Positions 3,660 to 50,905 of a DNA stretch of 64,000 bases are shown here, piece after piece (position 1 is the first letter of the stretch; every line of letters begins with the position of its first letter). Under the pieces are notes generated by a model, which was not told the origin of the DNA, did not search any database, and saw nothing but the letters and a program-made list of their open reading frames with translations. The stretch covers positions 190,900,061-190,964,060 of the forward strand of contig OY282560.1 in the NCBI GenBank assembly GCA_958295665.1, written 5' to 3'. The position numbers and the translations under genes were made by a program. This stretch comes from Tipula vernalis. Its lineage: Eukaryota; Arthropoda; Insecta; Diptera; Tipulidae.

Positions 3660-4082
3660 ATGTCTACACCAGCTCGCCGCCGTTTATTGCGTGATTTGAA
3701 AAAATTGCAGGAGGATCCACCGAGCGGAGTATCGGGGGCGCCAACCGAAAGTAACATAATGCTATGGAATGCGGTGATATTTGGTCCGCAAGATACTCCA
3801 TTCGAGTATGGGACATTTAAGCTAAGAATTGAATTCTCCAAAGACTATCCAAATAAACTATCCAATGAAACGGCGGATGGTGGTCTATGTTTGGATATTC
3901 TGCAGAATACCTGGAGCCCAACATATGATGTTTTCGCAAGACTAACTTCGATCCAATCGCTGTTAGGTGATCCAAATCCTAATTCACCGGCAAACTTGAT
4001 TGCGGCCCAGTTGTACAAGGAGAATCACCTAGAATATGAACGACGGATAAAAGCGTGTGTAGAACAAAATTTTGTCGATTGA
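3660..4082 (+). CDS. Rad6/UBE2A-type E2 ubiquitin-conjugating enzyme retrocopy, HPN segment deleted
   Basis: A 140-residue intronless frame with the start [20 protein letters not shown], the signature of the Rad6/UBE2A (fly UbcD6) family. These E2 enzymes take ubiquitin from E1 on a catalytic cysteine and, with Bre1- or Rad18-type E3s, mark histone H2B or PCNA. The catalytic region [10 protein letters not shown] and the C-terminal helices, ending [10 protein letters not shown], are kept. Between YPNK (about residue 64) and ADGG the family has about 16 residues, including the near-invariant HPN motif. Here there are five unrelated residues (LSNET), a net loss of 11 codons that keeps the frame. 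Active-site flanks also differ from family consensus (DVFARLT where the family has a DVSAILT-like sequence). Loss of HPN should cripple catalysis, so this is probably a pseudogene or a non-enzymatic paralogue, although the frame is open from ATG to TGA. The start is fixed by the conserved N-terminus. Confidence 0.8.
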
Positions 4083-16399: not shown

Positions 16400-16970
16400 T
16401 ATATGCATTACCCAAAACACATAAACCAGAGCAAAAACTGCGGCCATTAGCTTCGAACATCAATTCACCAACATTAATGATTGCAGTTTGGATAATAAAT
16501 AAAGTTAAACACATAAAACCACCGGACAGCTTTGAAAAAACACAAATGACCTGGTCAATAAGATAAAAGCGGAAACCGTAAAGAGATACGAAGCCTTGGT
16601 ATCATTCGATGTCGTCTCGCTGTATTATAGCATTCCAATAGACAAAGGGATTTAGTGTCTATTAAACTGGCTATTAAAAAGGAAAATTGTAGCAAACGCC
16701 ACTAAATCGTACCTAATTGTCACAAAATTGTTTATAGAAGAATTTTACATGTCGTTTGTTGAAAAAGAACTTAGCAGAACATCAACCTTTCCGAGAATAT
16801 TGCACCGATATGTGGACGACATCTTCGCAATAGTAAACCGGAGAAAAATAAAAACAACACTCGAAATTATCAACGCTGTATATCCACCAATTGAATTTAC
16901 AGTAGAAGACGAAGAGAAGAATAAGCTAAACTTCCTTGAAATAACTATTACCAGATCGAGCAACATCTAA
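16400..16970 (+). pseudogene. Penelope-like reverse transcriptase (broken)
   Basis: In mixed frames the plus strand reads LPKTHKPEQKLRPLASNI (about 16.41 kb), then SFDVVSLYYSIPI (about 16.60 kb, the first catalytic Asp block). An in-frame TAG lies at about 16.65 kb (IDKGI-stop). Then come HRYVDDIFAIV (the YxDD catalytic box, about 16.81 kb) and NKLNFLEITITR. These are the ordered motifs of Penelope reverse transcriptases. At least one stop and frame breaks make it non-functional. In an intact element it would copy RNA at a nick made by the GIY-YIG nuclease. Confidence 0.85.
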
Positions 16971-17062
16971 ACTTCAGTATTTATCGGAAACTGACGCACA
17001 CGCCGAGTACCTGCATCAGACTGATACCACCATATTCCATATAAAAAGGCACATTCAATAGC

Positions 17063-17494
17063 ATGGTAAACAGATTGATATTCATCCCAATATACTCCGA
17101 AAACTACAGAAAAGAATTACACACAATATACGAAACAGCGAGCTTAAACGGATACACCAAAAATTTTGGAAATAAAATAGTAAGATGCACAAAACAAAGG
17201 AAATATTTAGAAGAAGCCTCAACTTTAAAACCTCTTAAAATGGAAAGCAAAGTCTTATCAATCCCATTCTACCCAACATATTCGAATAAGGTGGCGAATG
17301 TCTTCAAAAACCACAACATCTCTATAGTCACCAGAAGCGATCTTAAAGCGAAGACCTCCATAGAAAAATATAAAGATAAAATTAATGAACATCAAAACTC
17401 AGATATATATCAAATACAATGCGAAAACTGCCACAACGTGTACATCGGCCAAACAAAAAGAACCATTGCAGCAAGATTTTCGGAACATTTATGA
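17063..17494 (+). pseudogene. Penelope-like C-terminal linker and truncated GIY-YIG endonuclease
   Basis: A 143-codon frame. After a basic linker (residues ~1-105, with RCTKQRKYLEEAS and a conserved IPFYPTYSNKVANVF block) comes the GIY-YIG start. IYQIQCENCHNVYIGQT has the paired-cysteine signature of Penelope nucleases, followed by KRTIAARFSEHL. A stop follows EHL, so the rest of the nuclease, including its catalytic Glu region, is lost. It overlaps no other gene and lies directly upstream of the 3' inverted repeat. Confidence 0.85.
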
Positions 17495-22646: not shown

Positions 22647-24429
22647 TTAATAGCCCTCTAGCCGGCCCATTTTTTTTTTGGCTGAGACTTTTATGTAAGG
22701 GTTATTTTAATGTAAGAAATTCAAAAACGAAGTCACAAAATTATTTCAGATAAAAACTACGAGTGGCAGGGGCAAACATAGGTAGGCCGCCAAAAGGCGG
22801 GTTGGCCGTCACACGGGAGAAATAATACAGATTTATAACTTAATTTTTCAAATCTTAAAATAATACACATGTATTGCGTACAATACATCTATATAACGTT
22901 ATGGAATATTTGGAAGCACTTTTTGGCTGGCGATAAACATAGATTCAATTTGCATTTCACGCAAAACATTTGCGTCTCGGATTTGCAACCAGATAATTTA
23001 CACAACTTTTTGCCTGTTCTGTCTAACATATCAGGCCAATGGCCAACACCATCAAATCGAATATCACGCGGTGGCGCATATACTTTCTTCGAAGAAGCAG
23101 CTTATTCAGTCATGGTTTTTTCCGTGCTTTGAGATGGCCTCCCAACGGCCTTTTTTTGCTGTTGTTATTGGAAGCGACACAAAACATCAACAATTTCTTA
23201 TCGAAAATCAGCAAGTTCAAATGGAGTGAATCCTTTGTGAATGCGTCGATGGAGAAGATAAGCATTTATTATTGTCATATCAATTAAATGATAAAATAGT
23301 CGCAATGAATAACTGCTCGTCTTCAATCGTATATTAAAACGTTCAAGCAACCATTCCTCGAATTGGTCAAAGTTCGACTGCGGATTTGAATGGAATTATT
23401 CCAACATAAGTTGAAGCTAGTCTTACATTTTTTGTGTCTTTCCATAAAACAGCTGTTAAATCAACTCCACAAGCACGTCCCACATATTCCACTGAGTATG
23501 CTCTAGGCTCTCTTTGAAGCTCTTTGTCTCTGTCGCTTGGAAGTTTGCAGTTGTTTATGCGACTGGCGCGAATTGTGCCTAATGAATATATTCCTCGACT
23601 TTGTAGATACAATAGTAGTGGTAGTGAAGTATAAAAATGATCAAAATAAAGGATAAGATATTTAACGTCAGTAAGTGACTGTGACAAGCGAACAACAACG
23701 TTAGCACAAGCCCCTAAATTTGGTGTATTTGGAAGCACTACATTTTCTCCTGATCCAGTATGTATTTCGAACTTTTAAGAAAAGCCGTACGAATCACGTT
23801 AAACAAATAATTTTATGCCCCACTTATGCGCCTTGTTTGGCATATACTAACGAAATCGCGATTTCATTTTACTACCACACATTGGTTCATCCACGCATAG
23901 TCGCGCATTTTTTGGAAATTAATCAAACCTGCGATTTAACTGAACAACAACTGGCCTAATTTTAAATAGCAAGTCGTAGCCGTCTTCGCCATTTTTCTTT
24001 CTAAGAATGATGTTGTTGAAACAAAAATAGTAATTTGTAAAATCGCTTTGACTTCATTGTATTCCTTATTACCTCGAATGAATGTTGCCTCCAGTAACGC
24101 TCCAGATTTGGATAATGGTAAATAGACATATATACCAAAATGCTGATATTTTTTTTTAATGTCAACATAATTTACAGAAAATTTGGTTTGAATGTCCTGT
24201 TGAAGAGAATTCAAGGTGCTTTTTATTAATTTTTTGTTGAGTATTAACTAACTCATGTAATATCTAATATGCTACTGGTGATTAGACCATTTTAAGTGTG
24301 TTTCGATTAACACGAGAAGTATATTAGTATTTACGAACAGTAATTCAACGAAACCGACTAATAGACATAATTCTATTTATTTAATTAAATGATTTTTAAT
24401 ATATTTCGAAGATTGTAAGAGAATTCAAT

Positions 24430-24496
24430 CCAGTTTCGAACTGATGAGCTTATGATTATGAAAAAATCAATCTTCTCATCAGGCCGCGGCGACTGG
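24430..24496 (-). ncRNA. Hammerhead ribozyme candidate, copy 1a
   Basis: On the minus strand: CCAGUC, GCCGCGGC, CUGAUGA, GAAGAUUGAU..., ...AUCAGUUC, GAAA, CUGG. Stem III is CCAGU/ACUGG, the cleavage triplet is GUC, stem I is the short palindrome GCCGCGGC, and stem II is GAA/UUC plus UUGAU/AUCAG around a two-base bulge. Every invariant core residue is present. An alternative 8-bp hairpin (CUGAUGAG/CUCAUCAG) competes with the fold. Not tested for cleavage. Confidence 0.6.
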
Positions 24497-24932
24497 ACTG
24501 ATTATATCACAATTTACATTCTATATATACAGAATGTGCTGTGCGTTAAGTACTAGCGAATCGTACTAATACAGATGAATTCTCTTACAATCTTCGGAAC
24601 ATATTAAAATCATATAATTAAATAAATAGAATTCTGTCTATTAGTCGGTTTCGTTGAATTACTGTTCGTAAATACTAATATACTTCTCGTGTTAATCGAA
24701 ACACACTTAAAATGGTCTAATCACCGGTAGCATATTAGATATTACATGAATTATTTAAAATTCAACAAAAAATTAATAAAAAGTAAAAATTGGCGTACAC
24801 AGAAATAGAGCTGTGTTGAATATTGTGAAGAAGAAAAATTGTAAGAGAATTCATCTGTATTAGTACGATTCGCTAGTACCTAACGCACAGCACATTCTGT
24901 ATATATAGAATGTAAATTGTGGTATAATCAGT

Positions 24933-24999
24933 CCAGTCGCCGCGGTCTGATGAGAAGATTGATTTTTTCATTATCATAAGCTCATCAGTTCGAAACTGG
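24933..24999 (+). ncRNA. Hammerhead ribozyme candidate, copy 1b
   Basis: Plus strand: CCAGTC (24933-24938, predicted cut after 24938), GCCGCGGT (stem I, now closed by a G-U pair), CTGATGA (24947-24953), GAA..., TTC (24989-24991), GAAA (24992-24995), CTGG. All core positions are intact. It lies about 45 bases upstream of the element's fixed 3' end. Confidence 0.62.
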
Positions 25000-26252
25000 A
25001 TTGAATTCTCTTACAATCTTCGGAACATATTAAAATCATATAATTCAAGTTGGTTTCTTCTGCTTTTTTTTTTCGAACAACTCATCATTAAAAAAATTAT
25101 TAAAACAGGAATAAGGCGTCTTGAGATCGTAAAAACTCTCTGGAAGTTTCGAGTCACCCCTGAACACAATTTCGTTTCGATGAAGAACAAAATTTTTTTT
25201 TCTCCAAGTTATCTTTGAAAATTCTGTTGACTTCAAGTTAATGTTTGCAGCACTACCAGCAAACCCATCATTATTTGGTTGGAAGCTAAGACCGCATTCT
25301 TAAAACACAGGTAAGGGAGAACAGGGCCGCTTAGCTGGTTTTTCCGGGAGCTTCGATAACGGTTATGCTTTTGGCTGTTGTTCTATGTGTGATTACATCG
25401 ACGAGGTCTCTGGCTGTGGCTCAACTTATGGTGGTTGTATATGTTGTTCTGTTGTTGTTGTCTGTGATGAAAATTCAAAGGGCGGTGGCTCAACTTCTAC
25501 TGGTTGTATATGTTGTTCTGTTGTTGGTGTTTTCTGTGATGAAAATTCAATGGGAGGTAAATCGAGGCTCGTATTCATCCGCTTCACTGTCGCTTGTTGC
25601 ACTGCTTATTGAATTCTACATATCCTGAATTTTCTCATCAGTCATAGAGCTAAGGTTATACGGTCGACGAAAACCTGTTGGGCGTACCTTAACCCCTTCC
25701 TGTTTCCCGTTTCGTAGCATTTCTGAAGGCAACAGTCCAATTCAGTTGACAAAATAGCAAAAACAAAAACAAAACAACCAAAGGTAGACCCAATCCACTT
25801 GAAATATTTTCAAACATAAACAAACATGTATATATTAAAAAAATTTATCAACCGGCAAGTCCGCCTTTGGACGGTGTTTACATAATAGGCACAGAGGCAT
25901 GCTAATATTTTTTTATCACTAGACAAATTTCAGTATCACAAAATATACAAATTTTCCAACTTACCAATAATTTTTTGAACAAAATCAACGACTCAAAATA
26001 TTTTTTATTTATTTTTTAAAATTCTAATGTACAGAAAATAATTTTGTTATAAATTTGACAATAAAATTCGACTTGTCTGTGGAAATAATACAAAAGATAA
26101 CCGTTACAATATACACAACTAAACTATAGTATAGAGAACTCATACATGTGTAACTCTATCTCGAAGGTAAAAGAGAAAATAACAAGTATCTATTTATTTT
26201 TGTTGTTTTTGTGTACCTCGTCTAAAGGCAGGACTGCCTAGTAGAGGGTTAA

Positions 26253-29480: not shown

Positions 29481-30460
29481 AGCTAATCAAAAATTTACAT
29501 ATACAAATCTTCACTTTCATTCAGGAGATATAAGATTTTAAGTTTTTAATTAGTTATTCCGCTCGTACAATTACAGCACAATTCATATTTTCTAATTGGC
29601 AATGAAGATGGAATATAAATTCTAAAATGAAATATTTTTTAGCTATTTATTAAATTGTGATTGACACTTTGGATTAAATTGTGAATTTAATTACATTGCA
29701 GCGGTAAACAATATAAGCCGACGGAAAGAATTCGGAGATGTGAAATGAACTAGATGTGACTGTGAGATGTGAAGCGAAGAGGAGAGATTAGATGAGGTTC
29801 CTCTGACATTTTTAAAATAGCAACTAATATTCGATTCCAAAACTCTGCTTGATTTATTTGGGCATTCGATAAAAAAAAAATCTTCACCTTCTTTGACTAA
29901 ATAAAAATTCCTTAATAAGGATAATAACGATAATAAAATTCCGTGTTTCATGTTGGTATTCTTATGTTAAATGATATATAATCGCTCGAAAATTCCATCA
30001 GCTTTAGGAACAAGACGAATACATGGAACATTGATACCAAATAAAGCAGCCAAATATTTTGAGAATATTATTCGTTAATGGCATTACGATTCAGCCGCAA
30101 AACAAAAATCCATTTCCTAGGTTTTAACTTCAAGCAAATCTAGGCCATTCCTAGTACCAATACCAATAATTGGCTCATTTTGTTGTCTATAATTGGTAAT
30201 AAATATGATTGGTAATTAAATCCTTAAATACATTGCAAACCCAAATAATATTTGGGTTTTTATCAAAATTTTGGAAGGGATTCTTTCAATTGAGCAGCAA
30301 CCACAATGAAATTTAAGTCCACAAAAGGCTTGACAAGTAATGGTTCTAGCATTAGCTGCCTTACAAGTCCCACATAAGTACGAATATGTATCATATGCCT
30401 TGTGGAATGTTCACTAAAAATAATTGTTGATGAGTATATTTCTGAGCCAGTTGTTTTCAT
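29481..30460. other. No gene recognised; possible minus-strand coding relic
   Basis: An 82-codon minus frame at 30511-30263 (TIIFSEHSTRHMIHIRTYVG) is interrupted by element copy 2 and the SINE. Part of the former frame may continue beyond 31.39 kb. I do not recognise the family. The rest shows nothing. Confidence 0.3.
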
Positions 30461-30684
30461 GAACGGTTTTTTTACTTTATTAATTTTTTTGTTGAATATT
30501 AAATAATTCATGTAATATCTAATATGCTACCGGTGATTAGACCATTTTAAGTGTGTTTCGATTAACACGAGAAGTATATTAGTATTTACGAACAGTAATT
30601 CAACGAAACCGACTAATAGACAGAATTCTACTTATTTAATTATATGATTTTTAATATGTTCCGAAGATTGTAAGATAATTCAAT

Positions 30685-30751
30685 CCAGTTTCGAACTGAT
30701 GAGCTTATGATTATGAAAAAATCAACCTTCTCGTCAGGCAGCGGCGACTGG
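30685..30751 (-). ncRNA. Hammerhead ribozyme candidate, copy 2a
   Basis: Same 67-nt layout as copy 1a, with core CUGACGA. The changed base is position 7, the one core position that is free in the CUGANGA consensus. Stem I (GCCGCUGC) has one mismatch. CCAGUC, GAAA and stem III are intact. Confidence 0.55.
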
Positions 30752-30930
30752 ACTGATTATACCACAATTTACATTCTATATATTCAGAATGTGCTGTGCG
30801 TTAAGTACTAGCGAATCGTACTAATACAGATGAATTCTCTTAAGAAAATTCATCTGTATTAGTACGATTCGCTAGTACTTAACGCACAGCACATTCTGTA
30901 TAATAGAATGTAAATTGTGGTGTAGTCAGT

Positions 30931-30997
30931 CCAGTCGCCGCGGCCTGACGAGAAGATTGATTTTTTCATAATCATAAGCTCATCAGTTCAAAACTGC
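30931..30997 (+). ncRNA. Hammerhead ribozyme candidate, copy 2b (core damaged)
   Basis: CCAGTC, GCCGCGGC and CTGACGA are present, but the downstream core is AAAA in place of GAAA (30990-30993) and stem III has lost its last pair (CTGC). It should be inactive. Confidence 0.5.
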
Positions 30998-31055
30998 ATT
31001 GAATTCTCTTACAATCTCCGGAACATATTAAAAATCATATAATTGAACGGTTTTT

Positions 31056-31382
31056 TTGTTGTTGTTGTTGTTTCTTGATTTATTTTTTACCGTCCTACTT
31101 TACGCCTGGAGTAGCCAAATCGAGGACGGGCGGCTACAGGTCCGTCTTTGAAAACCACCTGCACATTGCATTGCTTCATGCCAACCTGTAGTCCTGACAT
31201 GAAAGGTGGGTCGGCCCATGGATTCTGCACTCTCAACAGGGGGTCATAGATGTGTTCATCTTCATCATCGATCGTAATCAGATGATGAAAAATCCCTTTT
31301 GCATCCCGCCCCTATAGGGATTCGAACCCGGTACCTCCCGATCCAACCGCCGCAGCTTTAACCACTGCGCCGTTTGCTCGGT
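31056..31382 (-). mobile_element. tRNA-derived SINE, copy 2
   Basis: Minus-strand copy of the SINE at 12.7 kb, with the head (ACCGAGCAAACGGCGCAGTGG) at 31382 and an A-rich tail with AAC units near 31056-31075. The B box GGTTCGAATCC is intact (complement at 31319-31329). Target duplication GAACGGTTTTT at 31045-31055 and 31383-31393. The 3' end stops about 55 bp earlier in the body than copy 1, suggesting subfamilies. Confidence 0.92.
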
Positions 31383-34142: not shown

Positions 34143-36900
34143 TCAAAAATTGTTTACAAATATTTTGATAATATAATTATGTTGTATAAAAATGTCTAAG
34201 TTATCCATCCACAATATCGCATCGTCAGTCATCTGATGAATTTCCTCCAATCCGTCTTTCAACCTTCTAAATATGCATTTTTGATAAATGTGAACAATAT
34301 TTTGTATAGGATGTCCACAATCACAGGCAGCTGAAATTTCATGATTGTAACGATTTAATTCAGAATTTGTCACCCCGTGATTTGTTCTAAATCTATTGAC
34401 TAAGGTCCAACGATATCTTAAATTTGTGAATCCAGGGACAACTAATGTTGGATCTTCAATTAAATGCTTGTTGACAAACTCTGATTCTTTGAAAAGTGCC
34501 TTCCAATTGTTATTGATGTCATAGTTGGTTAAGTCTCCCAACTCAGCAATTTTTGTCCAAAAAGGTTTTCTAGAATTCAAATGGTTTTCTATTCTTCTAT
34601 CGATGTCGAAATGAATAGGAAGGTTTAAATTTCTTGTAATTTTTAAATGTTCTTTGTATAATGCTAACTGTCTTCTAAGGTGAGGTGGTTCAATATTGGA
34701 CAATATCGGCAGCCATGGTAATGGTGTTGTTTTAATTGTACCCGAAATAATTCGCATGTAACTATTGAGTTTTGTATCTACATGATTTGTATTGGCACTA
34801 TGTTCCCAGATAGGTGAACAATATTCAGCTGTTGAATACACCAGTGAAATTGCTAATATACGTAACGTTTTAGCATTCGCACCCCATCGAGTTCCAGATA
34901 GGTTTTGGATAATGTTCACACTTGATTGATTTAATCTTTTGTCCAAGTTTTAAACAATGAATTCTAAAAGTTAAAGCTCGATCCAAAGTAACTCCCAAAT
35001 ACATCGGATTCTGATTAAATTTGATTAAAATTCCATCCAATCATCCATGTAAACATTTAAACGAGTATTCGAATGTTGATTTGATAAATGAAAAAATGCA
35101 ACTTCGGTTTTGCTGGGATTCGCCTTCAGTCGCCAATTCTTGTAATAATCATTTAGTTAATCCAAATCCAATGTCAAAATACGCTCTGCATCAACCACCG
35201 CTCTGTGATTGGTAATCTATTGCAAAATCCATGCCATGAAATTGGTAATCTATTGCCAAATCATCAGCGTATAGAAACTTTCTAGATTTTGTTTCTGGCA
35301 AATCAGATGTATATACATTGAATAAAACAGGAGCAAAAACTGAACCTTGTGGCAATCCATTATTCACACATCGAATTGTACTTTTCTGATTTCCCAAATG
35401 TACAACAAATTTTCGATTCGATAACAAAGCAGAGATCATGTTTAAAGTTTTTGAACATTTTAAAATCTTACTTAATTTCAACATCAATCCTTTCTTCCAA
35501 ATCGTATCATATGCTGCACTTAGATCCACGAAAGCAACAGCTGTTTGTAATTTGTCTTGGAATCTTGCTTCAGTATGTGTTACCAAAGACAAAACTTGAT
35601 CACAACAATTTCTTCCTGGACGAAAACCGGCTTGATAATTTGGAATATTTTCAATAAGTGTTGGAAAATTTTATAACCAAAATGCACAACAAAGATATCG
35701 GCCTAGAATTTTCAGGTAGATGTTTGTCCTTTCCAAGTTTTAAAATGGCCGAACTTTTGATAAATTCCAAATCGGAGGAATTTTGCCACGATTATAACAA
35801 TCAGAATAAAATTTTGCCAACCAATTACGGGCGTTTTTTGATAAATTAATAAAAAATTCGGGAAACACCTCATCCACTCCACTAGCTTTGCTTGGTTTTA
35901 GATATGCTAGTACACTATTAATTTCATTAAAAGATACTGACGAAGCCAATGGAAAATCCGTAATTAATTTCTTTGATCTTCTCCATTTATTTTGAACGTT
36001 TCGAAATTTATTTTTGGGTATACGACATTTTGAATTTTTGACTAATCTTGGACGCAACATCCTTCGGATGTACTGTTGTTATGTTAACACCATTTTTATT
36101 ACTAGAATCACCACTTTTCTTTAGTAAATCACATGCTTTTCTGCTTGAACGTGAAAAATCCATTGTTTCAACTAAATTTATCCATTTCTCAGTACGTTCC
36201 TGATTTAATTCATTAATTAATTCATGTGCAATTTCTTTAGATTCGTTCTCTTGATACAACAACAATAATCTTTCACATTCATCGGACCAATTTGGAATGT
36301 ATGTTCTCCGAAACCCTCTTGGAATAAATCGTTTAGCCGTAGATATTAGGAGTCCCACAAATCTATTATAATTTTCAACAACCGGAGGAATAAATTTATT
36401 ACTTACAGTCCTTACAGCATTTATCTTTAGCATCAAATAATAAGTGTAAACGGTTTCTATTTGCCCAATCAAGTATAAATTCTCTATTCAAATCATCTTC
36501 GGTGTAACCCCACAGGCAATGATGACTATTGAAAGCGCCCATATAAACTGCGGGATGATTAAATACTGGTAATGGTGTTGACCAAGAAGAGCCAGGAGGT
36601 TTATAAACATTTAAAATTTTCACATTGTTTAATTTGATAACTAGAATTTCAATATTATTAATGTTTGATTTTAATAAATCGGAACAATCGTCACATAAAT
36701 CACTTCTTATAAATTTCGCAATTCCATAATGTTCATGATGAATAGAATCAATGTACGAAAATTAATTTATTAAACCGCAATTCAAAAGTTAAAAATCATC
36801 TTTCATATGGGTTTCCTGTAGAAGCAAAACATCACGTTTATTGGTGTGAAGAAATCTTGACAAATATTCAACTTTCGTTTTTGTTAATCCTTCAACATTT
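34143..36900 (-). pseudogene. LINE A ORF2 (endonuclease-RT), main part
   Basis: Minus-strand order: endonuclease (from 36900: NVEGLTKTKVEYLSRFL, KRDVLLLQETH, then NSHHCLWGY), linker (36472-36008), RT start (36060-35740: NSVLAYLKPSKASGVDEV), RT core (35592-35191: AVAFVDLSAAYDTIW, NNGLPQGSVFAPVLFN, RKFLYADDLAIDY) and C-terminus (34946-34143: TPLPWLPILSNIEPPHLRRQ). At least four frameshifts or stops separate these. A small tandem duplication lies just after YADD (AIDYQ twice). In life such proteins nick DNA and prime reverse transcription on it. It is a Jockey/I-group LINE; I cannot fix the clade. The first codons of the endonuclease lie beyond LINE B at 41.63 kb. Confidence 0.9.
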
Positions 36901-38686: not shown

Positions 38687-41386
38687 TGAAGGTTTTTCAG
38701 GGTAACCTTCATAGAAGTTAGATAGCGGATGCCTTGCTGGATCAACTGAGGCTAGACATAGGCGCAAACCTCTTGATTGTTAGTGAGCAATATCGTAATA
38801 GAGCGGAACCCGAATGGTACTCTGATAACCTTGGTACAGCTGCCATCTGGACCCCGTACCCGATTACAGTCGACGATCATGGAGCTGAGGAGGGTTTCGT
38901 ATGGGTTAAAATCCAATCTGTTATATACGTGAGTTGCTATTTTACCCCAAACGAGCCGATGGACGATTTCCAAGCTAAAGTTGATGTATTAGAAGATAAA
39001 CCACGTGAACTGAATGGTGCGCTCGTTATTGCCGGAGACTTCAATGCAAGAGCATTGGATTGGGGCATGAACACTACGAACCCAAGAGGACGGTATATTC
39101 TGGATATGGCGACTAGGGTAGGACTCACAGTGATGAACGAAGGTGGCGTATCGACGTTCAGAAGGCCGGGCCATGCTGAAACGATTCCCGATATCACTCT
39201 GGTATCTGATATGATGGCACTGAACGTCACGGGATGGAGGGTAATAGAGGATTACACTGGTAGTGACCACCAATATATCGTCTATAATGTACGGGGTGGA
39301 TTGCGAGAACTTGTTGAATGAAGTTAATAAATCAAGCGTGTAATGCGTCTATGCCAAAAAGACGAGGCACAACGGGGAAAAAGACCGCGGTTTATTGGTG
39401 GTCTGACGAGATAGCGAATCTCAGGAAGCATTGCCTACATCTTAAACGCCTAGTCACTAGAGCAAGAAGAAGAGACCGATTCGCGGGAGAACCGGAACAT
39501 GAGGATTATCGACTGGCGAGAAGAGCGCTTAAATTCGAAATAAATAGAAGTAAGCGCCTGAAATGGTAGAGCCTGAAACGGGACGTGGACAAGGGCCCCT
39601 GGGGCTTGGGTTACAAAATTGTGATGAGCAAACTTGGATCTCAGGCGCCCAGCCTTGTAATAGATACACCACAATTGTGGCATATTGTAAACTCCCTTTT
39701 CCCGAGTCACACAAGCGACGATCGGCCACATTGCCCCGATAAACCAGAGAAAATACCAGCGTTCACGGTAGAAGAGATTCAGCAAGCCGCCGCCTCTCTC
39801 CGCAATAAGAAAGCGCCTGGCCCAGACTGGGTCCCCATGGAAGTGCTGAAGGTAATCGCTCGATCAGAACTTAAGATACTTTTAAACATGTATAACCACT
39901 GCCTTGAGGAAGCGGTTTTCCCTAAGGCATGAAAAAGCTAGCGGTTGGTGCTCATTAGCAAAAGGAAAGGCAACCCTACCTCCCCATGAGCATATAGACC
40001 CTTGTGCATGCTTGATACAGCAGAAAAATTATTGGAACGCTTACTTAAGTCGCGGATCTCTGCAGCAATTCAAGCTGCAGGAGATCTCCCTGATAAACAG
40101 TATGGCTTCAGTATGGCGCAACAAGGGAATCATCATTCGAGGAAAATAGTGTTGCTTGCCACGTTGGATGTGAAGAATGCGTTCAACTCCGCGAGATGGG
40201 CGGACATGTTGTCAGCGTTAACAAGTGACTTTCATATGCCAGACTACCTTCTGCGAATAATGCCTAGCTACCTTCAAGATAGAAGGCTTATGTTTGAAAC
40301 CATGGAGGGCAAATGTAGCAAAGAGATCACGAGAGGTGCTGCTTAAGGGTCCATTCTAGGTCCCGATTTGTGGAACGCATCATATTACGGCATATTGCGA
40401 ATGGAAATGCCAGATGACACCTTCATGGTGTGGTATGCAGATGATATAGCGGCAGTAATGATCGCTCGAAATATAGAGGATGTACAGCGTAAGCTCAACC
40501 AGGTCATGCGCAGAGCAGAATCGTGGTTAAGCAGCCGTAGTTTAGCCCTAGCAACGGAAAAAACAGAGCTTGTGCTGCTTACGAGACGACACATAGCGAC
40601 CGATGTACTGTTCGAGGTGGCAAACCAGCAGTTACGGTCTAACACAGCAATTAAGTACCTGGGGGTCTACCTGGACACAAAAGGAAATTTTGGAGAACAA
40701 ATCAGGCATTCTGCAGAGAAATCAAACAAAGTCTCTTTTGCTCTGAGAAGGCAGGCTGATGACGAATGTCAAAGACGGATAAATATATCAAAGACGGATA
40801 AATATAGGAAAGTAATGGCGACTGTACAGCGTTGTGGGGCACTCAGAATCTGTAGTTCCTACAGAACGGTATCGGAACCGGCTGTTATGGTCATTGCGGG
40901 TGTTATCCCTATCGACCTAATGGCTGAAGAAAGAAAAAAGATCTACGACATCAAGGACGACCTTAACAGTGAAGAAGCAAGAAGTGTGGCTAGAGGATGT
41001 ACCATGCTGTGCTGGCAAGAGAGGTGGCAAACAGAGGGCCGTGGAAGTTGGACTGCAAGGCTGATAAGAAGCCTGGCCGAGTGGATAGAGAGGTGAAACA
41101 TGGTGAAACAAATTATTTCCTCACCCAATTCCTCACAGGCCATGAGTATTTCTGCAAATATTTGTTCACGATGAAGAAGGTGGAAAACCCGTCATGCATT
41201 TATGGGGATGCAGGCCTTGATGACGCGCAACACACATTCTTTACATGCGAGAAGTGGAAACGTGAGAGAGAAGAACTTCAAAGGAAAATCGACAACGCAA
41301 CGCCCGATAATATCGTTAACATGATGCTCAGGACGGAGTCGAATTGTAATCTAGTGGCCCAGTATGTGGAACTGATCCTACGGTGA
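38687..41386 (+). pseudogene. LINE B ORF2 (endonuclease-reverse transcriptase, R1 clade), inactivated
   Basis: The endonuclease (38.69-39.30 kb) has VFQGNLHRS, LVIAGDFNARALDWGM, GVSTFRRPGHAETIPDITL and YTGSDHQY. The RT follows: AAASLRNKKAPGPDWVPMEV, LATLDVKNAFNSARW, a GAA-stop-GSILGP box and VWYADDIAAVMIA (40.43 kb), then ALRICSSYRTVSEPAVMVIA and VIPIDLMAEERK. The C-terminus has LTQFLTGHEYFCKYL and a CCHC-like tail (CIYG...HTFFTCEKW). In-frame stops include TAG near 38.72 and 39.57 kb, TGA near 39.93 kb (in a W-K block) and TAA near 40.34 kb (in place of the Gln codon of AAQGS). Several are single transitions. Frameshifts occur near 40.0 and 41.05 kb. Dead copy. Confidence 0.93.
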
Positions 41387-41760: not shown

Positions 41761-42261
41761 ATTAGAACCACATAGGCATTTAAAAAAAAAATAATATTTA
41801 ATTTAAAAATTTACACAATTCAAAAAAAAATTACGGAAGAAAATAAATATTTAACCATTTTTTTTTGACAGTTGGCCTGTTTTTATTTTGTTTATACAAA
41901 AATATAACAAATGATAAGACCTATATAGAAAACAAAGTATAATATTTGCTATATGGTATATGAAAATGGAATCAAAAAGGCTTTGCTATTTTACAGTTGG
42001 GATGAAATGGAACACCAATTTCTGGCAAATCTATCTTTTTATTTTTTTTAAATTTTTGGAAACATTTTGATAAAGTAGGTTTTTGTAAACCTTACACTTT
42101 TTAAAATATTTACAAAACAAATTTTCTGGACCAAGTGAGTGGCCACTTCCGGTTAGCCGATTTGGAGTAGAATTCACTAGGACCTCCCAATTAATCAAAA
42201 AAGCTTAAATCTGAAGTATCAGTTCGATTGGTTGAACCATCTGGGCTATAGAGAGGACATG
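41761..42261. other. Non-coding; relative of the 12.2-12.4 kb foldback arm
   Basis: GGAAACATTTTG, TTTGTAAACCT and CACTTCCGGTTAGCCGATTTG near 42.06-42.16 kb parallel GGAAACATTTTG, TCTGTAAACCT and CATTTCCGGTTGGCTAATTTG near 12.29-12.37 kb. This suggests a partial copy of the same element family next to the octamer array. No gene. Confidence 0.5.
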
Positions 42262-42920
42262 AACTGACAGACTAATAGACTGACAGACTGACAGACTGAC
42301 AGACTGACAGACTGACAGACTGACAGACTGACAGACTGACAGACTGACAGACTGACAGACTGACAGACTGACAGACTGACAGACTGACAGACTGACAGAC
42401 TGACAGACTGACAGACTGACAGACTGACAGACTGACAGACTGACAGACTGACAGACTGACAGACTGACAGACTGACAGACTGACAGACTGACAGACTGAC
42501 AGACTGACAGACTGACAGACTGACAGACTGACAGACTGACAGACTGACAGACTGACCGACTGACAGACTGACAGACTAACAGACTGACAGACTGACAGAC
42601 TGACAGACTGACAGACTGACAGACTGACAGACTGACAGACTGACAGACTGACAGACTGACAGACTGACAGACTGACAGACTGACAGACTGACAGACTGAC
42701 AGACTGACAGACTGACAGACTGACAGACTGACAGACTGACAGACTGACAGACTGACAGACTGACAGACTGACAGACTGACAGACTGACAGACTGACAGAC
42801 TGACAGACTGACAGACTGACAGACTGACAGACTGACAGACTGACAGACTGACAGACTGACAGACTGACAGACTGACAGACTGACAGACTGACAGACTGAC
42901 AGACTGACAGACTAACAGAC
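42262..42920. repeat. (ACTGACAG)n octanucleotide array, ~82 units
   Basis: About 660 bp of the 8-bp unit ACTGACAG with only a handful of substitutions (near 42271, 42557, 42578 and 42914). Because 8 is not a multiple of 3, all frames on a strand read the same eight-residue cycle. On the minus strand no stop arises, which explains the long Leu/Ser/Val/Cys/Gln frames. They are not genes. Confidence 0.98.
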
Positions 42921-45900
42921 ACACACCATTTCGAAACCCACTTTTTTAGACTCAGGGGACCTCAAAACAGATAAATCTCTAAAAATCTCAAGGTCCAAAA
43001 TTTTCAATATAATCGAATTTTAAACGTTGTGTACATTGTCGATGCCAAATAACAATACCAAGTACTAAGTACTAAACACATTAGATTTTGACAGCTAAGT
43101 AGATTACTTGGCGTAATCTGAAAATATCTTGAGTATTTTGGTATACCCAAGCAGTTCTTCTAGCAAAATCTGGAGTTGTATGTAGTTTAAATGCGACATA
43201 TTACGTAACTTCTAAAGAGTAACCAAAATTGATTTTTTTATTTCAAGTTTTTAGTGAAACGATTTAAAAATAGATCTAGTAATATCTTCCCAATATAACT
43301 AACAATTTCACATCTATAAATACTTCACTTAGACATATTAAAGTGGATATTCAAAAACGTTGACTATATCTTCCGGCATCAAAACAATTTGACTTAACAA
43401 CAGACACAATAATGGCCAACAACCATAGAGCAATGAAAACTTTACTATATACATACAACTGTTTATTATTTCCCATTCAAAAAGAACCGCCGAAAAATTC
43501 AATTAAAATACAACAAATACAAAGTTCCTACGTCACAAAACTTTCTTTTAAGCTTTCCATTTTTAACTAAAAAAAAATATTCTTTTATTATTTGTCTCAA
43601 AGTCATTCAAAACTGTTTGGAACAGACAGACGAAAATCTTAATTTTTCCAACTTTTCTTTTCGTTATTTCCCATTTTATTATTATTATTTTTTTTTTGTG
43701 ATGTTATAATTTAGGTCAAAAGTTAAAAATAATAAAACCGTTGCATATTATTAAAATAATTTCACCCTTAATTCCTGACCTTTATTATTTACAAAACAAA
43801 AACAAAAATCTCTTTCCATCTCATTTCCGCGATTTTCATTAATTTCTTCTTCGTCTGAACGTTTTATTTTATTTATTTTTACGTTTTTAATGAATGAACT
43901 TGAAATAATCGCAGTACTAAGAAGAAGAAGAAGAAGACAAAAACTCGGGCGTTGAACGAATAATTACCCCATGACTTCCTTCTTTTTTTTTTTTTTTTAA
44001 TTTGTAGTGGTTGTTCTATTTGGCTGATGATGAGTATAAAGTAGGGGAAAAAGTACTGTGGGTATTTTCCTGAGAAACGCAAAAAAAAACTCAATTTCTG
44101 TTTTGTTTTTGTATTTACATAAGAAACTTATTTAAACAGAAAAACAAGTGGAAAAAATTAAATTTTCATTTTCATTTTCATCGTGAAGCAAAACAAAAAA
44201 AAAAAAAAAATATTTTAATCAACGAGCGAGAGTAAATGAAAAATATAAATATTTTTTTTTTTGTGTTGAAGTTGGTATGAGGAAAAACGGAAAGAAAATT
44301 TTCTTGTAAATTTATTTATTTATTTTGCTTTTTTTTTTTTTAATACAACTAAATTGTTGTTGGAATTTTAATGAGAAACCTTGAAAGAGTTCTTTACGTA
44401 CGTACTACGATAAATTTTTTATGTTTGCCGCTCGAAAAGAAAACAATAAAGTAGAAGACTGCTAAAAAGTAACATAAAAATGAAAATTAATTTTAGTATC
44501 CCAGGTCAAGGAATTAATTGTTTAAGTCTCGTTTTCAATTTTAATGAATACAACAAAAATAAAAATGGGGAAAAAAGTTGGTTGTGAAAACGATGAGACG
44601 TGAATGAAAAATTGGGTTAATGGGTTTATATGGTAATGCTTTGGATAAATAATGCTTTATACGTTGGTGTCGCTTAAAGATTTTAAAACGATATGGTATG
44701 TTTCCTATATCTATTTAGGGACTAGCACTTAAGTAAATTGATATACCCACCCACTACATTTCCGTATAAATGGTTTTTCGAATAATATTCAAAATCAAAC
44801 ATTGTGTTACGATTACGACCACCCAAACAGTAAACAGATGCAATAAACTGAGCGTATCTGTGGAATATCGTTATAAAACGTGATCTTTTATACAGCGTTA
44901 TGTAATAACTTTAGCCAAAATTATGTACATATATACAGGATTTCCATTATCATATTACAATGTAAAAACCTCTCCATAGTAACCTTCAAACGAAGCGTAA
45001 CAAAAAAATTCATTTCAGTATATTTTATGACATCAATTTCATTTCAAATATTAATCTCATTCTTCACAACCCACTCCCCGTTACCCGACAAGGTTCCATA
45101 ACAAATTTTCCTTAAACAAAAATTTTATTTCGCATCATCCAAATATATATACCGAACAGAAGAAAATTATACACACATACACACGCACCCATGTAAAAAA
45201 AAAAAAAGGAAATCCATTTTGTTGTGTACCCTCCCCTTTATCCATACTTGTTTTCGTATATATTTTCTCGTGCAATTTCTTAAAACTTAAATAAGGGTTA
45301 CCAGATGTATGTCAAAATAAACTTGGTTCTTCGTATCTAAATATCTAAATATGTATAGCAGTACGATATGGATAAAAAAAAAAATTAAAATTTATTATCG
45401 AAATATGATAATACACGGAAAATATATAAAATGTTGCTGACAATAAAAAATATGGATAGTCATTTTCATACATATACATACTCTGTTTTCTGGGATGTGT
45501 CAAGAAAATTTTGTACGAAATAAAAAAAAATTGAAAATTATGATGATGGCTTTTCGTATTGCACAGTGTTCGCCGGAATATTTTATTGTTGTTTTTGCTG
45601 TTGTATTTTACCATAAATGAAAATTATAGAAGTTTTATATTACATTAAAACGGTTTGTATTTTTTTTTTGTTGCGGTTCAAGTTTAGCAAAAATTTCTGT
45701 TGATGGAAAACCAAATGGGAGTCTTAAATTCCCAAAACTAAATTACTACTTTTGAAATTTTCTATTCGATCCTATACATACATATTATTACAACCATAAA
45801 TGATATAAAATTATTTATGATTAATGATTTGGTAAATAAAATAAAAAAATGAAATATCGGAAAATGACTAAATAAAAAAATATTTTTAGTTGATTCGGAA

Positions 45901-50817: not shown

Positions 50818-50905
50818 GACATTGATTTTTTCATAATCATAAGCTAATCAGTTCGAAACTGGATTGAATTCTTTTACAATCTTCGGAACATATTAAAATC
50901 GTATG
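50818..50905 (+). mobile_element. Hammerhead-bearing family, 3' fragment (copy 3)
   Basis: ATTGATTTTTTCATAATCAT, CAGTTCGAAACTGGATTGAA and CAATCTTCGGAACATATTAA repeat the last ~90 bases of copies 1 and 2. The half of the ribozyme with CCAGTC and CTGATGA is missing, consistent with 5' truncation. Inserted in piggyBac 3. Confidence 0.88.

Follow-up and report, generated by a model that had tools for sequence, protein, structure and literature searches.

The window considered here is a 64,000-nucleotide (nt) stretch of contig OY282560.1 from Tipula vernalis (Diptera, Tipulidae; assembly GCA_958295665.1, positions 190,900,061 to 190,964,060 of the forward strand). It contains two composite insertions and one truncated copy of a short non-coding repeat that carries a 67-nt motif resembling a hammerhead ribozyme. 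The repeat family is very probably mobilized by an enzyme of the Penelope type, which would use the RNA of the repeat as its template. The features of the three insertions are given below, with positions in the 426-base-pair (bp) repeat unit numbered u1 to u426 and with 3' ends classed as long or short.

24208..24215, + strand: left target-site duplication of composite a, AATTCAAG, exact
24216..25041, no strand assigned: composite insertion a, two head-to-head copies; left outward 3' end of long type (u208), right outward 3' end of short type (about u41)
24430..24496, − strand: hammerhead-like motif, 67 nt, every invariant residue kept
24576..25001, + strand: reference unit u1-u426, 426 bp, non-coding; 24576-24622 recurs at 25002-25048
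24928..25004, + strand: motif of 24933-24999 with its full 10-bp helix III, UCAGUCCAGU (24928-24937) with ACUGGAUUGA (24995-25004), pairing read from the sequence
24933..24999, + strand: hammerhead-like motif, 67 nt, every invariant residue kept; predicted cut between 24938 and 24939, after CCAGUC
25042..25049, + strand: right target-site duplication of composite a, AATTCAAG, exact
30460..30473, + strand: left target-site duplication of composite b, TGAACGGTTTTTTT, 14 bp exact
30474..31043, no strand assigned: composite insertion b, two head-to-head copies; left end of long type (u214), right end of short type
30685..30751, − strand: hammerhead-like motif, 67 nt, C at position 7, invariant residues kept
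30931..30997, + strand: hammerhead-like motif, 67 nt, C at position 7, G12 changed to A
31044..31057, + strand: right target-site duplication of composite b, TGAACGGTTTTTTT, 14 bp exact
50821..50904, + strand: third copy, 5'-truncated within the motif (u383 to u40), short-type 3' end

An earlier note on this DNA had picked out these four 67-nt segments, and all of them were found; the motif occupies u358-u424 of the reference unit. The right ends of composites a and b fall at the same element base (about 25041 and 31043, within the ambiguity of the duplications), and the third copy ends within a few bases of it, both as the note had observed; no target duplication was seen by eye around this third copy. 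The flanking repeats of 11-13 bp that it reported are real duplications of other lengths, namely 8 bp exact in composite a, extending to 11 bp with one mismatch, and 14 bp exact in composite b. Long inverted arms are present, and the description is corrected in that each composite is a pair of head-to-head copies of the 426-bp unit. At the inverted junction of composite b (30782-30903) the 61-nt arms are 97% complementary and draw microRNA-precursor scores from Rfam below the gathering threshold, as a long hairpin may.

Copies, ends and pairing in the genome

The family is abundant in the 1.27-Gb genome. A search pattern of CCAGTC, CTGANGA and GAAACTGG with free spacers, which fixes the core and 5 bp of helix III, matched 4583 places (2264 + 2319), and the reversed pattern matched none; a pattern fixing only the flanks of the motif gave 1313 + 1330 matches with a control of 0. 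Copies of the 426-bp repeat occur singly, in tandem and head to head. The tandem copies occur in arrays of three or more units; two arrays account for six places spaced 421-435 bp apart, and an array of about four units was also seen.

Sixty loci were sampled. Thirty of these (L031-L060) were chosen by the motif alone, and the other thirty (L001-L030) by similarity to a stretch finishing at the short end, a choice that favors the short end in the matched copy but leaves its partner unbiased. The 3' ends in L031-L060 cluster at u33-58 (short) or u194-216 (long), approximately 105 and 275 nt downstream of the predicted cut, and the 5' ends are scattered. The sixty loci and the two window composites, minus six duplicates, supply 30 distinct head-to-head pairs. 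Of these, 24 combine a long with a short end, one is short at both ends, none is long at both and five have one end in neither class. Thus the long and short combination is found in 24 of the 25 pairs with both ends classifiable, a result with a probability of about 8e-7 for 24 or more at equal odds, and the sole short and short pair has a 39-bp piece as one of its arms. The motif-picked loci alone contribute 12 pairs, of which eight are long and short and four have one odd end. Target duplications scoring at least 9 flank 21 of the 30 pairs and 9 of 29 unpaired pieces, compared with 3 of 120 random placements, and they are mostly 9-18 bp in length.

Features of this kind are described for Penelope elements. 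In Adineta, one of two inverted pseudo-long-terminal repeats (pLTRs) may bear a 31-bp tail at its 3' end, and the duplications are 8-10 bp in the cases given (PMC3846280). In vitro, both DNA strands are cut and extended by a Penelope enzyme, and reverse transcription begins at two sites within the RNA, which match the tail; the start site did not differ between the two strands, and the one-of-each rule in the family described here goes beyond that report (PMC11167929). Mobilization by a retrotransposon of the long interspersed nuclear element (LINE) type is disfavored and very improbable. LINE-type open reading frames do lie in the window, and 5' truncation and target duplications are common in LINE insertions; however, two internal 3' ends, one of each per head-to-head insertion, match the Penelope mark of both reports, and the short-end junctions inspected show no consistent poly(A) or simple-repeat tail.

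Because of the two fixed 3' ends, the long and short pairing, the target duplications and the co-resident Penelope elements, integration is attributed to the Penelope type, and on the same marks the small non-autonomous family proposed in the earlier note is upheld. With a probability of roughly 0.7, we favor a non-autonomous, retrozyme-like retroelement built of 426-bp units, which the enzyme of a Penelope-like element would copy and insert. The unit, its ends, the pairing rule, the duplications and the presence of Penelope elements in the same genome are direct observations.

Penelope-like elements in the same genome

Penelope elements are numerous in this genome. Among 150 scored of 1663 candidates there were 67 GIY-YIG matches, some in long open frames and some in adjacent inverted pairs. 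Cores of minimal type I hammerheads were recognized by eye in L091 and in 11 of 30 sampled Penelope loci (L063, L064, L076, L079, L081, L083, L085, L086, L087, L088 and L090). Nine of the 11 (not L081 or L086) lie downstream of the endonuclease on the same strand, and several of these type I hammerheads have a palindromic ACUAGU at helix III. Long and short ends also occur: one Penelope family has two copies that end at CTAATGATA and two that extend about 39 nt further, and the inverted pair L088/L079 combines a long with a short 3' end, the two differing by about 39 nt. The open frame of locus L091 spans 812 aa and includes YVDD and a GIY-YIG motif; in addition, a 42-nt repeat joins the 3' tail of L091 to the start of its open reading frame. 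Pfam found nothing convincing on the L091 protein, although relatives of L091 do carry reverse-transcriptase domains. The candidate enzymes thus have open frames of up to 812 aa, and their use of the unit RNA is putative.

The window itself holds a remnant of such an element together with the non-autonomous copies:

16536..17494, + strand: decayed Penelope-like element, reverse transcriptase 16536-16952 and GIY-YIG 16955-17491, identified by tblastn with the L091 protein and by its frames; Pfam GIY-YIG below cut-off

A further Penelope family (L072, L073, L062 and L067-L069) has long frames, the hammerhead-like stretch of the members inspected reads CUGUAGA where CUGANGA is expected, and its members diverge at different downstream points.

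The hammerhead-like motif

The motif is ordered as a 10-bp helix III with one G-U pair (UCAGUCCAGU/ACUGGAUUGA), C17 and the predicted cut, GCCGCGGC, CUGAUGA, helix II and GAAA. Helix I is formed by GCCGCGGC, a self-complementary 8-nt palindrome, and helix II has only 3 bp adjoining the core. Judged from this order, the topology is type III with helix III as the open helix, a feature that is absent from the earlier note, as is the competing hairpin described below. The invariant core (CUGANGA, GAAA and UH at the cut) is complete in three of the four window segments, and helices I and III pair. The exception is 30931-30997, in which G12 is changed to A, and C recurs at position 7 in two of the four segments (30685-30751 on the − strand and 30931-30997 on the + strand); both points agree with the earlier description. 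Two other readings of the motif were rejected by eye. A type I hammerhead on the + strand would leave GCCGCGGU with no helix I partner downstream of GAAAC, and a hammerhead on the opposite strand, which also has CUGAUGAG, lacks a partner for either helix II or helix III.

Three matches to a loose type III descriptor occur in the window, compared with 24 over 300 Markov resamples, a mean of 0.08 per window with both strands counted. The three matches belong to one family and are therefore counted as one independent event. Simple scaling of the resampling, with the palindrome and helix II uncounted, puts the chance of the core descriptor at about 5e-4 per 426-bp unit. This low chance weighs against an accidental ribozyme look-alike in the palindromic arms of a foldback DNA transposon, a reading for which the long inverted arms and hairpin-forming DNA might speak. 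Such an element is hardly credible here, as the outer ends differ between the arms (long versus short), single and tandem copies exist and the 5' ends are variable. A hammerhead is taken here as the ancestor of the motif.

Evidence against the proposed reading and its alternatives

Several observations weigh against a Penelope-mobilized retrozyme, some of them concerning mobilization and others concerning catalysis. Among the first, the 3' ends of the family are about 170 nt apart, compared with 30-40 bp in published Penelope tails, and the long and short rule among the Penelope elements of this genome rests on the single pair L088/L079. Moreover, the best DNA match of the 426-bp unit to any of the 30 Penelope loci sampled has an E of 1e-4 and lies in AT-rich DNA; this is not convincing, and because of this no specific Penelope partner is named. 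The family could alternatively be a deletion derivative, reduced to its pLTR, of one unsampled Penelope element and so no independent retrozyme at all. The abundance of Penelope elements, with a hammerhead upstream of a similar 3' end and with long and short ends, would suit such an origin. It is nevertheless unlikely, given the lack of convincing unit similarity in the 30 loci and the difference in topology, type III in the unit versus type I in the Penelope elements.

With respect to catalysis, the predicted folds are unfavorable. A monomer favors a hairpin of CUGAUGAG and CUCAUCAG that buries CUGAUGA (-31.2 kcal/mol, versus -16.7 kcal/mol for the open-core fold), and this competing hairpin is 14.5 kcal/mol more stable. 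The best dimer fold combines a trans helix III with the 8-bp palindromic helix I and reaches -73.5 kcal/mol, versus -62.4 kcal/mol for two monomers; however, its core is still paired, and an open-core dimer reaches -45.5 kcal/mol.

Insertion ends likewise give no clear sign of cleavage. Nine 5' ends genome-wide (flanks unchecked) fall exactly at the predicted cut, compared with four at a boundary 4 nt upstream, which is no clear excess. A changed base after the cut is present in 141 copies; the 41 of them that were inspected have mostly point changes, with four running into unrelated DNA and one local duplication (a count made without a shifted control). The scarcity of insertion ends at the cut suggests that templates normally cross the cut site, as uncut multimers or re-closed circles would. 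One single, mutated copy (L056, 1048-1178 on the − strand) has an outward 3' end at the predicted cut, AGTC being followed by unrelated DNA.

Of the three outcomes that the earlier note named as refuting its reading, two were obtained, the lack of a covariance-model hit and the spread of substitutions into the core, and its hammerhead is supported only by resemblance. Rfam reports no hammerhead family at the gathering score in the window, nor up to E 10 around both composites. Because Rfam up to E 1 also misses the hammerheads in the 11 Penelope loci, it is rejected as an arbiter. In 62 substituted copies taken regardless of core, the core is changed as often as other positions (1.67 substitutions per position in the core, 1.33 in GAA and 1.60 in non-core positions). 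A smaller set, L001-L030 and the window, hints at depletion in the core (4/339 changed, versus 164/5759 outside the motif in the same stretch).

Another alternative is a relic ribozyme: the family would have a hammerhead-carrying ancestor, but the motif would now be kept as the CUGAUGAG/CUCAUCAG hairpin, a binding or start signal for the Penelope protein, and would not cleave itself. This explanation shares its account of mobilization with the one preferred here, and it is a serious competitor although somewhat short of even odds. The far greater stability of the hairpin relative to the open core and the lack of a clear excess of ends at the predicted cut are in its favor. In L031-L060, where the search pattern fixes 20 of the 67 motif positions, the 47 free positions also diverge less than the rest of the unit (32/1401 versus 399/8292), CUCAUCAG included (2/237). 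In L001-L030 and the window, in contrast, the motif differs little from its neighborhood (60/2528 versus 164/5759, with 414/10914 over the rest of the unit as a whole), and the positions that change least are those of the core and not those of CUCAUCAG (6/304). The subfamily with G at u381 likewise retains the core, GUC, the helix III register and the palindromic helix I as a set, though with 20 of the 67 positions fixed by the search, and the best dimer fold also employs helices I and III. Substitution counts in the aligned loci do not choose between ribozyme and hairpin. Decay after insertion says little about the source copy, and the Rfam and substitution tests are both weak. Judged on sequence and predicted folding, the hammerhead would be dependent on a dimer or on protein, or else a relic, and its cleavage is putative.

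Proposed mechanism

In the retrozyme reading that we prefer, a Penelope protein would bind multimers transcribed from tandem copies, or circles derived from these, and would cut both strands of the target DNA. Reverse transcription would then start inside the RNA at two sites, approximately 105 and 275 nt past the predicted cut, one for each DNA end. Both complementary DNAs (cDNAs) would be extended upstream, in most cases past the hammerhead, and would terminate at varying positions, leaving head-to-head, 5'-truncated pairs between target duplications. The motif itself would descend from a hammerhead whose topology is type III and whose helix I is palindromic. Any cleavage would probably occur as a dimer, with protein help, or both, since the hairpin favored by a single RNA hides the core. 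Small Penelope hammerheads reportedly cut as dimers, according to a 2017 paper.

A more specific scheme is also conceivable, in which the type III hammerhead is functional solely in dimeric form. Two RNAs or neighboring units would be joined through the palindromic helix I and a trans helix III, the CUCAUCAG strand would act as an off switch, and the RNA dimer would load a two-subunit Penelope enzyme, thereby setting the rule of one long and one short end. We regard this scheme as speculative and quite improbable.

Precedents exist for protein help and for a blocked core. Cleavage by the Anolis hammerhead was seen only with protein added (PMC11167929), and the ribozyme is blocked by pairing in plant retrozymes and viroids but not in most metazoan retrozymes (PMC7229834).

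Relation to known elements

The family is similar to the non-LTR (long terminal repeat) retrozymes of metazoans, which are short, AT-rich, non-coding tandem repeats with hammerheads, present in thousands of copies and co-existing with Penelope elements (PMC7229834). It differs from them in its type III topology and palindromic helix I (theirs being type I), in its unit of 426 bp (theirs giving RNAs of about 170-400 nt) and in the blocking of its core by self-pairing, which most of them do not exhibit. Plant LTR retrozymes share the type III hammerhead (PMC7229834, PMC7761336), and insects are among the organisms with type III hammerheads (PMC7761336). In contrast to those plant elements, the family described here has Penelope-type insertion marks and duplications mostly of 9-18 bp rather than 4 bp.

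Likenesses to Penelope-like elements include tandem and inverted copies, target duplications, two internal start sites and a tail on one inverted end (PMC11167929, PMC3846280), and in the Anolis element PAc a hammerhead likewise lies upstream of the 3' end (PMC11167929). The absence of an open reading frame, the opposite ribozyme topology and a tail of about 170 nt rather than 30-40 set the family apart. The Dolichopoda satellite pDo500 is also a repeat with a hammerhead proposed to act in single or double form (PMC2837043). However, its repeats form satellite arrays of about 500 bp, and its proposed double form has stems I and II in trans and stem III in cis, whereas helices III and I are in trans and helix II is in cis here.

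Among the available portions of the openly licensed literature, neither a type III hammerhead nor a palindromic helix I was found in any Penelope-mobilized animal element. We file the family as a variant of the metazoan retrozyme, with the repeat structure and Penelope features present and the type I feature lacking. Penelope elements are considered a strong candidate for spreading animal retrozymes, based on common type I hammerheads, tandem layout and co-existence (PMC7229834), and a curation guide likewise states that retrozymes may rely on them (PMC8969392). The family fits this long-suspected and unproven partnership, with candidate Penelope enzymes residing in the same genome as the retrozyme-like copies. 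The tail signature of Penelope elements, carried by 24 of the 25 classifiable pairs, makes the spread of animal retrozymes by Penelope enzymes a testable claim. The near-strict long and short rule further constrains, in quantitative terms, the use of two start sites by these enzymes within one insertion. If proven active, the type III topology and palindromic helix I would widen the range of hammerheads among animal retroelements.

Other features of the window

Remnants of other mobile elements and two further frames are present in the window:

3660..4082, + strand: intronless frame resembling a ubiquitin-conjugating enzyme (Pfam UQ_con), perhaps a processed pseudogene
23367..23738, − strand: transposase remnant (Pfam DDE_Tnp_1_7), presumably of piggyBac type
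35191..35592, − strand: LINE-type piece, reverse transcriptase
38734..41096, + strand: LINE-type piece, endonuclease and reverse transcriptase
42205..42924, − strand: frame translating to SVSLSVCQ repeats over more than 200 codons, probably a minisatellite and not a gene

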